Assembly (NCBI GenBank): GCA_902556405.1
Contig: CACDWF010000013.1
Coordinates: 1-43,591, forward strand
Reading direction: 5' to 3'
Length of the DNA stretch: 43,591 nt
Source of the DNA: an uncultured Alphaproteobacteria bacterium
GTDB lineage: Bacteria > Pseudomonadota > Alphaproteobacteria > Rhodobacterales > Rhodobacteraceae
Below, piece by piece: positions 6,281-28,381 of the stretch. The translations under genes were made by a program, and so were the position numbers. A model generated the notes under the pieces. That model was not told the origin of the DNA and did not search any database. It saw only the letters and a list, made by a program, of their open reading frames with translations. Within the stretch, counting starts at the first letter, position 1, and each line of letters starts with the position of its first letter.

Positions 6281-8616
6281 TTTGTATAATCCTTCTTTAC
6301 CGACACTCTTTTTTTAATATTAGAGTTTGAGTTACCTTTTATGTTTAAATCCCTTTGTGGAAATGGGATCTCGATACCTTCTTTTTTAAATAATTCAAAA
6401 ATGGAATAATGAAGCTCCGATCTGACTTGAAACATATAATTTTTATCTTTTACATAAATAATCAAATCAAAATCTAGTGAACTATCTCCAAATTGCTGAA
6501 ATCTTACAAATGGCTCTGGGCTTTTAAGAGCCATCTCATGACTTTTTCCAACTTTTAGTAATAATCTTTCAACCCTTTTTGGGTCGGTATCATAGGAAAC
6601 ACCTACCGATACCCGCACCCTGCCGGTCTCATTACTATGGGTCCAATTGAGAACGGACCCTGCAATTAATTCTGAGTTTGGAACAACAACCATTGCTCGA
6701 TCGAATGTTTCGATTTGCGTTGAACGAACGGATATCTTTTTAACAGTACCTGAGAAACCTGAGGCTTCTATCCAATCACCTTCTTTTATTGGTCTCTCGA
6801 CAAGCAAAATAATTCCGGAAACAAAATTTGATACAATAGTTTGCAAACCAAAACCAATCCCTACACTAAGAGCTCCAGCAACAATAGCGATACTTGACAA
6901 ATTGAATCCAATTGAAGATAAAGCAACAACAGCTGCCAATGTATAACCGATATACCCAACACCAGAAACCAATGCATTTTGACTTCCTTTATCCATTTTT
7001 GTTTTGGGTAAAACAGTACTCTTTACAATTCTCTGGATGACCGTTGTTGCAAAGTAACCTAGACCGAATATTACACCAAAATTCAAAATAGAAGTAGGCG
7101 TTAAATTAACATCTCCTAGTGTTAAACCTTCGTTAAATCTTACCCATAGCTCCACATATTGTGAAAACTCAACCCCTAGAGCTAGACCCAAAAGCAAGAA
7201 AGCGCCGATAAAATTAAGCAAACTAAAACCCAAAAAATATGGGTTGGTTTCATTATTCTTCCTTCTCTTTTCCGACAAAAACAGTACGCGTAATAAAAAG
7301 TCGATCAAAACGGCAAGGATGATTATACCCGTTATATAACTCATCGCTTTGATTATCTCAAAGGCAACTAAGAGATAGCCAAAAATACCTCCTATTAAAA
7401 AAACCCAAGTCAGAGCAATGGCTCCTCTGGTAATAAAATCGACTGACAAAAAGCTTAACCCCCTCTCCTTATCTGGCAGAAGGCTGGTAAGTGAAAAAAT
7501 AAGAGTTTGTATACTTCTCAAACCATAATTAAATACACTCGCAATTATTACTAAACCTATAGCGTTTAAGGTTACCTCAGCTTCAAGGGAAAGATACGAC
7601 CTCTCGGTCAAGTAGCTAATTACTGTAAAAAACCCCAAGGCAATAGCTATACAAAATATTGCTCCCTGCAGTCGTGAAAGATCCATGGTGTAGCCAAAAT
7701 TATAATTTGATAATCGGTATTTTGCTTCTGCAACGACTGTTCTAAGAAAATTTCCTAGCAAGAAAATTAAAGCTGCCACAGGCAAAGCGTCAATTAATAT
7801 TGGGAGCCCATAATTTCCACTAAGACTTTGCAGAAAATTGATTATCGACGTAGCACCAATCACTTGAATAACCAATCTAAGAAAAGGATTTAAAAAAATC
7901 AGCGTATTGTTATTTTTTATTTTCGGTGAAATGACTTTGTTGCCGAATGCAATTATTTTTTTTTGGAAAACAAGTATAATTAGGCCAATGAAAAAAGTTA
8001 TTACTGGAAGAAGTGAAACTGAAAACATCCTAACCCATCTTCCTTGAGTATTGAAATTTTTGTACAGATCAACTGCAAAATTTCCAATTAAACTTGAAAA
8101 ATCAGACGCACCTTGAGCATAGGTAGTGGGTAACAAAACAAGTTGATTAAATGAAAAAAACCTTTCATTGAATCTCACTTTCTTTAGTGCATCAATTTCC
8201 TTGATCAGTCTTTCTGCTCTTCTAAGAGAAAGCTTTGTATTAGCCAATTGAAACGTGGTTTTTTCAAGAGTACTTATAAGTTTTTGCCGCTTCAACGAAA
8301 TATATGTCCCTTGTATGGAACTCTCTGCAACTAAATCATCAATTAGCTTTAACTCTCCCCTTTGAATAAGATACTTGTTATTTATCTCTTTTTGTAAGAG
8401 AAGAGCCTTATTTCTATCTTCGAATAAGTCAGCTCTCAAATAGCTCAGCGACTCATTGGATGCTTCTCCCTTAGAAAGAATATCAGTAGCTCTTGCAGCG
8501 TTTTTATTGAAACTATCAAAAACAATTTCAAGTGTCTCTCCTTTTACATTTATTGGGCTAAGGAATAGAAATAGAGCAGTAAAGACCAAAGTTAATAGCT
8601 TTTTAAATGTACTCAT
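6277..8616 (-). CDS. large MscS-family mechanosensitive channel
   Basis: A 779-residue inner-membrane channel. A signal peptide (1-26) precedes a charged helical periplasmic region (about 30-140). About ten membrane segments follow, then the MscS pore and beta domain (about 540-740) with GIGFGLQTIVSNFVSGIILL, ERPIKEGDWIE and VVVPNSELIAGSVLNWT. The C-terminus is basic. This layout matches the large MscK/YbdG/DUF3772-type channels that release solutes on hypo-osmotic shock. It is the first gene of a two-gene operon with the AlaX gene. GGTAGGTAAG lies upstream of the ATG as a weak ribosome site. Confidence 0.93.
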   Translation of the reverse strand: MSTFKKLLTLVFTALFLFLSPINVKGETLEIVFDSFNKNAARATDILSKGEASNESLSYLRADLFEDRNKALLLQKEINNKYLIQRGELKLIDDLVAESSIQGTYISLKRQKLISTLEKTTFQLANTKLSLRRAERLIKEIDALKKVRFNERFFSFNQLVLLPTTYAQGASDFSSLIGNFAVDLYKNFNTQGRWVRMFSVSLLPVITFFIGLIILVFQKKIIAFGNKVISPKIKNNNTLIFLNPFLRLVIQVIGATSIINFLQSLSGNYGLPILIDALPVAALIFLLGNFLRTVVAEAKYRLSNYNFGYTMDLSRLQGAIFCIAIALGFFTVISYLTERSYLSLEAEVTLNAIGLVIIASVFNYGLRSIQTLIFSLTSLLPDKERGLSFLSVDFITRGAIALTWVFLIGGIFGYLLVAFEIIKAMSYITGIIILAVLIDFLLRVLFLSEKRRKNNETNPYFLGFSLLNFIGAFLLLGLALGVEFSQYVELWVRFNEGLTLGDVNLTPTSILNFGVIFGLGYFATTVIQRIVKSTVLPKTKMDKGSQNALVSGVGYIGYTLAAVVALSSIGFNLSSIAIVAGALSVGIGFGLQTIVSNFVSGIILLVERPIKEGDWIEASGFSGTVKKISVRSTQIETFDRAMVVVPNSELIAGSVLNWTHSNETGRVRVSVGVSYDTDPKRVERLLLKVGKSHEMALKSPEPFVRFQQFGDSSLDFDLIIYVKDKNYMFQVRSELHYSIFELFKKEGIEIPFPQRDLNIKGNSNSNIKKRVSVKKDYTK

Positions 8617-10342: not shown

Positions 10343-11609
10343 ATTGATCACTCTTTGTTTCAGGGAACCTAAACATTAGTAACAATGGCAAAACCTTCAG
10401 AGTAATTGGAGCGATAGCATATAAACAAGTCAACCAAAATAATATCTTCTCTGAATTACCACCTAAGGGATTAAAATCAACCGCGTAAAGAAACAACAAA
10501 ACGAATCCGCCTGAAAGAGCTGCAGCGGTCTTGTTTATAACAGATAAAATTGAGAAGAAAGTTCCAGACCGATTGCTCTTCACTATTTTAAGATCTTCAT
10601 CTAAAAGGTCTGCCTGAATAGACGTTGGAAGAGCAGAATCTGCACTCACACAAATACCGGTCAATAGACATATTACCGAGAATAGAAAAATACTATCAGT
10701 ATTCATAAAAAATACTAATGAGAAAACAATCATGGAAAAAAATATTGAGGCGCACCATAAATCACTTTTTTTAAAGAGCTTACTTATTTTAATCCAAAGT
10801 GGTACGCTTAACACGCCCGATAATAAATATAAAAGCATAAGTAACCCGACTAAATCCTCTCTTTGTAGTTTATGGATTACAAAAAAAGCAAACAAAGCTC
10901 CCGGAATTCCATTCGCAGCGGCATTAAAAAACTGACTGAGGAAAAAGTATTTTAATTTTTTGTTAACTAGTATGGTTGTGACTACACTAAATATTTCTGA
11001 CTTGTTTTGATGTGCTATACATCTTTCTTTTATAACAAAAGCGGAAATTATTATAGTTAGTGGGTGGCTAATAAAAATTACTATCGCTATATTTCTTAGG
11101 GCTTGTGTGGATCCCTCGGCCATAGCATATATTAGGGCTGCTAAAATTGTCCCCAAAAGAAAAAAGCCTTCACGAAAAAAAGTTATTCGAGATCTCTCAA
11201 AATACTCTCCACTTAATTCCGCTCCTAAACTATAAAAAGGTGGAGTAAAAAGTGATAGGCCTATGGTCAGTATCGCTATATAAAAAGCAAAGTGTTGGAA
11301 AGCAAATGTACCCAAATTAGATCCAAAGAGACCCCAGACCCCAAATAGAGTGAAGGGTAACGATATCAACAACCAAAACTTTCTTTTTCCAACGGGAACA
11401 TTCAAGTTGTCACTTGCCCAACCTACTAAAGGATCTAAAATCCCATCTAACAACCGTACAATTAAAAATATAACTCCGATCCCTAGAAGAGAGATACCAA
11501 ATTGTCTAGCGTAATGCTCGCTGACAAAAATAAATAGTGGAAATATTATCAGTGCCAAAGACAGTGCGTTTGATGCATAAATGATGTGTTGTAAATAATT
11601 TTGGCGCAA
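10335..11609 (-). CDS. GPH-family (MelB-like) MFS transporter
   Basis: A 424-residue membrane protein with twelve hydrophobic segments. The GPH-family signature loop is DGILDPLVGWASDNLNVPVGKRKFW after segment 2. The family moves sugars or other solutes with cations; here the genes around it concern membrane lipids, so the cargo may be unlike a sugar. No ATG is available near the N-terminus: the frame starts with TTG at 11609, 6 bp after the methyltransferase gene. It is the last gene of the long minus-strand run. Confidence 0.85.
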   Translation of the reverse strand: MRQNYLQHIIYASNALSLALIIFPLFIFVSEHYARQFGISLLGIGVIFLIVRLLDGILDPLVGWASDNLNVPVGKRKFWLLISLPFTLFGVWGLFGSNLGTFAFQHFAFYIAILTIGLSLFTPPFYSLGAELSGEYFERSRITFFREGFFLLGTILAALIYAMAEGSTQALRNIAIVIFISHPLTIIISAFVIKERCIAHQNKSEIFSVVTTILVNKKLKYFFLSQFFNAAANGIPGALFAFFVIHKLQREDLVGLLMLLYLLSGVLSVPLWIKISKLFKKSDLWCASIFFSMIVFSLVFFMNTDSIFLFSVICLLTGICVSADSALPTSIQADLLDEDLKIVKSNRSGTFFSILSVINKTAAALSGGFVLLFLYAVDFNPLGGNSEKILFWLTCLYAIAPITLKVLPLLLMFRFPETKSDQSI

Positions 11610-27634: not shown

Positions 27635-27997
<363 letters not shown>

Positions 27998-28028: not shown

Positions 28029-28043
28029 GTTCTATTTTTGTTC
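28029..28043 (+). promoter_or_regulatory. LexA (SOS) box GTTC-N7-GTTC
   Basis: The direct repeat GTTC (28029-28032), seven bases, GTTC (28040-28043) is a perfect match to the established alphaproteobacterial LexA operator. It ends two bases before the ATG at 28046, so bound LexA would block both promoter and translation start. It lies in the divergent region between the ferredoxin and OB-fold genes. Confidence 0.8.
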
Positions 28044-28045
28044 TC

Positions 28046-28381
28046 ATGAAAAATGCTCCAAAAAAAGATGCAATCTTGACTTGTGCTGAATTATGTACTT
28101 TAGAGAATAACTCTTTTGCATCAGTTGCAGGGTTTGTAATTGTTAAACAGATGCCCTCAACAGCTAAAGGGACAGTGTTTTTAACATTAGAGGATGAAAC
28201 AGGGACCTCAAATATAATTTGTTGGAATAGTGTTTACAAAAAGTTTAGGGATGAAGTTGTATTCTCTTCGTTTTTATTAGTACGTGGACAGCTACAAAGG
28301 GAAAAAGAAGTCTCTCACCTAATTGCTGATGATATAAGAGACATCTCAAGACTTCTCGAAATTATTCCAAATATAAAATAA
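28046..28381 (+). CDS. stand-alone OB-fold protein, matches the C-terminal tail of DnaE2/ImuC
   Basis: A 111-residue protein equivalent to the C-terminal linker and OB-fold of error-prone DNA polymerase III alpha (DnaE2/ImuC). It carries ILTCAEL, VAGFVIVKQMPSTAKGTVFL, TLEDETGTSNIICW and LLVRGQLQREKEVSHLIADD in the order found there. No polymerase, PHP or finger region is present. The ferredoxin gene begins 87 bp upstream on the other strand, so no hidden upstream portion exists. A perfect LexA box immediately precedes the ATG and no Shine-Dalgarno site is seen, so the mRNA may be leaderless. It could bind ssDNA or the mutasome partners, or be a maintained relic; both are inference. Confidence 0.85.
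   Translation: MKNAPKKDAILTCAELCTLENNSFASVAGFVIVKQMPSTAKGTVFLTLEDETGTSNIICWNSVYKKFRDEVVFSSFLLVRGQLQREKEVSHLIADDIRDISRLLEIIPNIK

Follow-up and report, generated by a model that had tools for sequence, protein, structure and literature searches.

A solo OB-fold gene behind a LexA-type box, probably the detached C-terminal domain of the error-prone polymerase DnaE2 in Rhodobacteraceae

The OB domain of C-family polymerases is thought to hold the single-stranded template; to our knowledge, its role in the error-prone polymerase DnaE2 is poorly defined. The closest described system is DnaE2 (ImuC; NCBIfam NF004225) itself, with which the proteins described here share the same sequence, the OB fold and, once a solo OB-fold protein and an OB-less polymerase are combined, the whole domain set, but here they are two polypeptides from different loci. 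All components of the ImuA-ImuB-DnaE2 mutasome cassette are likewise present together with LexA-type boxes, but the genes are dispersed and the OB domain forms a separate component.

Several DnaE2 sequences without the OB domain were noted by Timinskas et al. 2013 (PMC3919608), whose domain-architecture section mentions neither a separately encoded OB domain nor its regulation or lineage. Passages of PMC12926913 and PMC3765255 describe stand-alone ImuB-C and inactive PolY as split ImuB. Mutasome domains with SOS genes of their own are thus not without precedent; that case concerns ImuB, whereas here the polymerase is split. The main text of PMC12926913 does not contain the terms 'OB domain', 'OB-fold' and 'rhodobacter'. 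In the split-intein DnaE of cyanobacteria a C-family polymerase is likewise encoded by two genes, but the halves there belong to an intein, and none fits here. In a literature search, no detached DnaE2 OB domain appeared in the titles and abstracts among the matches listed; the cassette survey of 2006 (PMC1326238) lay outside the scope of this search and may hold prior notice. The OB-less DnaE2 was already known in 2013; for the detached OB gene, no report was found.

The reading that we favour, with a probability of roughly 0.8, is that the ImuA-ImuB-DnaE2 mutasome is dispersed and that the solo gene encodes the OB domain of DnaE2 (ImuC), detached by gene fission and supplied in trans. Its directly observed elements are the matching cut, the co-occurrence of the two parts, the one-sided tree, the nearby fused forms, the boxes and selection; damage induction, the interaction in trans and what the OB domain does are inferred.

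The solo OB-fold gene and its partner polymerase

The window, that is, the whole stretch of 43,591 nucleotides that was analysed, holds a solo OB-fold gene (28046..28381, + strand, ATG start, 336 bp, 111 aa). The encoded protein matched NF004225 (error-prone DNA polymerase) at model positions 939-1037 of 1047 (E 5.7e-29, 100.8 bits), which is below the curated cut-off for the whole protein (939 bits), and Pfam PF01336 (OB fold) with 42 bits (cut-off, 27). The C-terminal OB-fold of DnaE2 that the preliminary description had recognised in this 111-aa gene was borne out by both matches. An OB fold was predicted confidently by AlphaFold2 (mean pLDDT 91.2) using as input an alignment of 50 solo proteins, and PDB matches obtained with the predicted structure by Foldseek included the OB folds of Stn1, RPA32, PolD DP1 and aminoacyl-tRNA synthetases; when solved chains were searched by sequence with the same protein (P0001), no match was found at E <= 10. 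As a member of PF01336 (OB-fold nucleic acid binding domain), it is a putative binder of single-stranded nucleic acid.

The start codon is preceded by a LexA-type box, GTTC-N7-GTTC (GTTCTATTTTTGTTC, 28029..28043, + strand), which ends two bases before the ATG, as had been described, and is the only exact match to this pattern within the window. The bare pattern occurs at chance level (1 found vs 0.95 expected), so that the evidence for the box lies in its placement and conservation. A putative -10 element, TATTTT (28033..28038, + strand), lies in the spacer of the box, and would put the start codon roughly at the expected start of transcription. An alignment of 89 loci shows TATnTT conserved at box positions 4-9; the -35-like part seen in most of these loci (T(T/G)G at -18 to -16) is not evident in the source window. 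Upstream, a divergent ferredoxin gene (27635..27958, - strand) leaves 87 bp to the solo gene, again as described. It adjoins 88 of 98 solo-type loci and is taken as a conserved neighbour with no part in the mechanism.

With ImuB of the relative L033 as the query, contig C6 of the source genome was found to carry imuB (562 aa) and a DnaE2 gene (948 aa) with a methyltransferase-like ORF between them. This DnaE2 scored 1127.6 bits against NF004225, above the cut-off of 939, over model positions 5-941, and comprises the PHP, polymerase, finger and HhH domains; it ends just short of the OB fold, and no OB domain was found in a domain search of the 948-aa protein, whereas full-length L033 has its OB domain at 1014-1087. 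As the model is divided between DnaE2 (5-941) and the solo protein (939-1037), the two genes share one DnaE2 protein. The motifs PPDIDIDFEHERR and ILKIDILALG, which we take to be those with the catalytic acidic residues of DnaE2, are intact.

The ORF between imuB and dnaE2 (L137:3954-4835, - strand, contig C6) is SAM methyltransferase-like (Pfam Methyltransf_23), and is separated from its neighbours by gaps of about 20-30 nt.

The genes imuA, imuB and dnaE2 are all present in the source genome at loci other than that of the solo OB gene. The earlier statement that no polymerase accompanies the OB fold holds at the window locus only, and neither a loss of the polymerase nor a remnant of a lost imuABC cassette was borne out. 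The search for a full imuA-imuB-dnaE2 set in the same genome returned all three genes, in dispersed form and with DnaE2 devoid of its OB domain.

Occurrence of the solo OB gene with OB-less DnaE2

Among 61 genomes (the source and 60 relatives), the solo ORF was found in 15 of the 22 of the source genus. An OB match at E <= 1e-8 was obtained in 348 of 394 sampled Rhodobacteraceae genomes (46 without), and a solo OB was present in at least 149 of the 394 (frames of 110-520 aa), the one fused case among the 150 matches listed being G362 (frame of 1649 aa). Named public loci (80) and viral loci (7) were sorted by script into 50 solo, 34 full and 3 edge loci; two of those labelled solo (L122 and L129) are DnaE2 pieces, and the records of the remaining 48 are named Rhodobacteraceae or its genera (Marivita, Shimia, Ruegeria, Roseivivax, Pelagimonas and others), except three labelled only Alphaproteobacteria. 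In 385 genomes of the class Alphaproteobacteria (177 with a match), the only solos among the matches listed were those of G254 and G000, both Rhodobacteraceae. The split DnaE2 is, as judged from these sequences, a trait of a lineage, with the fission kept across Rhodobacteraceae.

Other short frames in Alphaproteobacteria were not accepted as solos: by their coordinates they lie near contig starts, except those of G710, G472 and G607, which are broken, frameshifted or close to a contig end. Seven viral loci encode DnaE2 relatives, in frames of 636-1157 aa; none is a short solo. For plasmids, the 60 matches listed of 829 fell on a polymerase annotation, outside any annotated feature, or in records lacking annotation altogether. 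One OB copy of the source genus near a contig start (L014, G005:C31) lacks the box, differs in the sequence upstream, and reflects either rearrangement or chimeric assembly.

DnaE2 presence and OB content were tested with full-length L033 as the query. An OB-less DnaE2 was found in 131 of the 137 solo genomes tested, with one match cut by a contig edge and five genomes without a match; the 131 include 11 found from the polymerase side. Left out of the counts of split genomes was G336, in which a solo OB is accompanied by a full DnaE2 and by a second DnaE2 fragment that stops at the split point, possibly at a contig edge. In the source genus, 13 of 15 solo genomes had an OB-less DnaE2, and the other two, without a match, are 72% and 62% complete. 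The DnaE2 match stopped before the OB domain in 31 of 31 solo genomes of other genera in the family (query ends, 994-1016). Among 80 further solo genomes, 77 had a DnaE2 match at E <= 1e-120, 76 of them ending at 994-1031; the remaining match, in G113, breaks off at 603 where its contig ends. No match was found in G403, G367 and G096. All 11 genomes found first by an OB-less DnaE2 have a solo OB (frames of 128-400 aa), and in all 10 genomes picked as full the OB domain is fused to DnaE2. Beyond the 150 listed matches, 68 other OB-bearing genomes had the OB in the DnaE2 frame (57) or an OB-less DnaE2 (the 11 just named). Since the same break recurs in more than 100 genomes of different genera, a local truncation or assembly error was ruled out.

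Exceptions occurred in both directions. A solo OB without DnaE2 was found in G096 (100% complete), G367 (94%) and the incomplete G403, G002 and G020, and an OB-less DnaE2 without any OB match in G089 (99%), G109 (98%) and the incomplete G143 and G187, as well as in five genomes of the source genus that are 64-90% complete (G001, G006, G012, G014 and G017). Those of G096, G367, G089 and G109 are either real losses or assembly gaps. In addition, G080 carries a split pair plus a full DnaE2, and G281 and G366 a solo OB with a full DnaE2, with no OB-less DnaE2 shown there.

These exceptions bear on the proposal that the OB protein is an independent SOS factor for ssDNA binding or for the fork, which no longer works with DnaE2. 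The OB domain without DnaE2 in G096 and G367 and the OB-less DnaE2 without OB in G089 and G109 speak for it, but we regard it as unlikely in view of the pairing in the 131 genomes, of the 20 listed genomes without an OB match, 16 of which also lack DnaE2 (several only 76-83% complete; the other four being G089, G109, G143 and G187), and of the OB sequence, which is still DnaE2-like in its match to NF004225. A partner of ImuB/DnaE is the most likely of the roles proposed in the preliminary description.

LexA-type boxes, dispersal of the cassette and selection

The 98 solo-type loci comprised 93 usable ones after exclusion of L032, L066 and L122 (DnaE2 pieces) and of L044 and L096 (contig edge). 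An exact box was present in 89 of the 93, the exceptions being L014, L021, L110 and L140, which agrees with the SOS-type control proposed earlier for the solo gene. In 78 of the 98 loci it stands 1-3 nt ahead of an in-frame ATG; as a control, among the 20,022 ATGs counted on the two strands of these loci, such a box precedes 78. The spacer usually reads TATnTTT; taken together with the T(T/G)G found in most loci at -18 to -16, this suggests that the -10 element probably lies within the box and that the mRNA, probably starting at or near the ATG, would be leaderless.

All 20 split genomes examined for it have an exact GAAC-N7-GAAC box upstream of imuB, and all 20 imuA loci (18 from split and 2 from fused genomes) have one upstream of imuA. 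Of 36 split dnaE2 genes, 31 have the box or, mostly, its variant GAAC-N7-GAAT within 200 nt, compared with 176 of 7200 randomly placed 200-nt windows in these loci (2.4%), the variant pattern having been chosen after the dnaE2 upstream sequences had been inspected. We know of no LexA binding to GAAC-N7-GAAT with its changed half-site. Three of the five split dnaE2 genes without a box are source-genus loci behind imuB, two of which have a box at the imuB start; the stretch read for the third ended short of it. Conserved LexA-type boxes at the OB gene, imuA, imuB and split dnaE2 are the promoter feature of the LexA regulon of Alphaproteobacteria.

Two further boxes were observed in L137. One, at 6540-6554, overlaps the start codon of imuB (gene-strand sequence, GAACAAAACATGAAC) and again hints at leaderless SOS transcription. 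A second exact box, at 10544-10558, is found at the beginning of a 121-aa ORF (10513-10878, + strand) just before an in-frame ATG, and this ORF is possibly a further SOS gene.

ImuA was found in 40 of 40 genomes searched and ImuB in 40 of 42, the misses being the incomplete G009, and G024, which lacks DnaE2. No imuA was found near imuB in any of 20 split loci, and in most split genomes neither gene lies beside dnaE2. Exceptions are the order imuB-methyltransferase-dnaE2 in the source genus, a divergent imuB beside dnaE2 in G076 and an imuB about 3 kb from dnaE2 in G088. The mutasome genes do not form one operon; they are mostly spread over four loci, and over three in the source genome, where imuB and dnaE2 are neighbours.

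Selection was estimated from the source genus, where the median NG86 dN/dS was 0.079 (48 usable of 56 equal-length pairs), far from 1, and the pooled pN/pS of the solo OB gene was 0.115; between the source copy and seven close kin, the 6-8 nonsynonymous and 1-5 synonymous changes are too few to judge. A decaying DnaE2 relic with a chance box, to which the chance-level frequency of the pattern in the window and the few changes on the source branch, showing no selection there, might seem to point, was rejected and retains a negligible probability: the solo frame persists in the source genus and across the family, box and box position are conserved, the genus-wide dN/dS is low, and 24 columns are invariant in the alignment of 50 solos. 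The selection on frame and operator supposed in the preliminary description was accordingly upheld, frame (15/22 in the genus) and box (89/93) both having been kept in relatives.

In 19 genomes, OB distances correlated with those of DnaE2 (r 0.78) and ImuB (r 0.81), vs 0.37 for the adjacent ferredoxin; the partial correlation of OB with DnaE2 given ImuB was only 0.18. This mirror-tree test sets the OB gene apart from ferredoxin, but does not separate OB-DnaE2 from OB-ImuB.

Position of the cut, origin and proposed function

Where measured, the split DnaE2 proteins end 13-75 residues from the HP of the motif HPxxLLRxxLTP, with tails that are not conserved beyond LTP, whereas full DnaE2 continues past this motif via a linker into the OB domain; the leader of the solo protein is short. 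The usual intein halves are larger than these tails and this leader allow, and there is therefore no room for them at the break. Rejoining of the two proteins after translation was rejected on these grounds as highly improbable, even though polymerase genes split by an intein are known from cyanobacteria, as a passage of PMC3919608 states.

A tree built from 69 polymerases placed all 31 split proteins on one side of a branch (SH-aLRT 95). They again fell on one side in a second tree from a different set of rows (57 rows, 31 split, mixture model), with a branch support of only 29 and with split G128 at the base beside the fused G362 and G320, the fused polymerases that branch nearest to the split ones. 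G362 combines an LTP-type polymerase with an OB domain of the WPRPPACL type, so that the solo-type WPRPPACL leader lies inside a fused protein. A weak tree of the OB domain only (105 columns) placed the source genus apart from the other solos. The trees fit, most simply, a single fission of DnaE2 in Rhodobacteraceae. In G362 and G025 the OB domain is still fused, dnaE2 has a LexA-type box or variant upstream, and no imuB match was found in the stretches read around it, which makes cassette, dispersal and fission the likely order of events.

Under the favoured reading of a dispersed mutasome with its OB domain supplied in trans, the OB-less DnaE2, the OB protein, ImuB and ImuA would be made from separate loci behind LexA-type boxes, all four upon cleavage of LexA after DNA damage. 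The error-prone mutasome would then be assembled from OB-less DnaE2, ImuA, ImuB and the OB protein, the last of these acting in trans and probably holding the single-stranded template. Modelled DnaE2-ImuB contacts lie mainly in the PHP and HhH regions, according to passages of PMC12926913; split DnaE2 keeps both and should still be recruited by ImuB, with the OB domain arriving separately.

The promoter-like site of the solo gene suggests that the amount of OB protein can differ from that of the polymerase, which would also suit a competitor or brake, a free OB domain that limits mutagenesis by binding DNA, ImuB or DnaE1. We consider such a brake quite improbable: the polymerase would have to work without an OB domain in 131 genomes, and a brake has no need for so close a tie to OB-less DnaE2.

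If the OB domain is indeed supplied in trans to the dispersed mutasome, the gene scoring as 'error-prone DNA polymerase' in split genomes encodes only a part of the enzyme, the remainder coming from a small OB-fold gene. A naturally OB-less polymerase with a separate OB protein is also a ready system for testing OB function. The OB domain has been cut off yet kept behind its own SOS-type site across a large, mainly marine family. Tentatively, Roseobacter-type bacteria might have a four-part SOS mutasome in which the OB domain is freely dosed and its supply switches OB-less DnaE2 to mutagenic activity; other polymerases may likewise use the free OB domain, and the few genomes with OB but without DnaE2 would be explained in this way.
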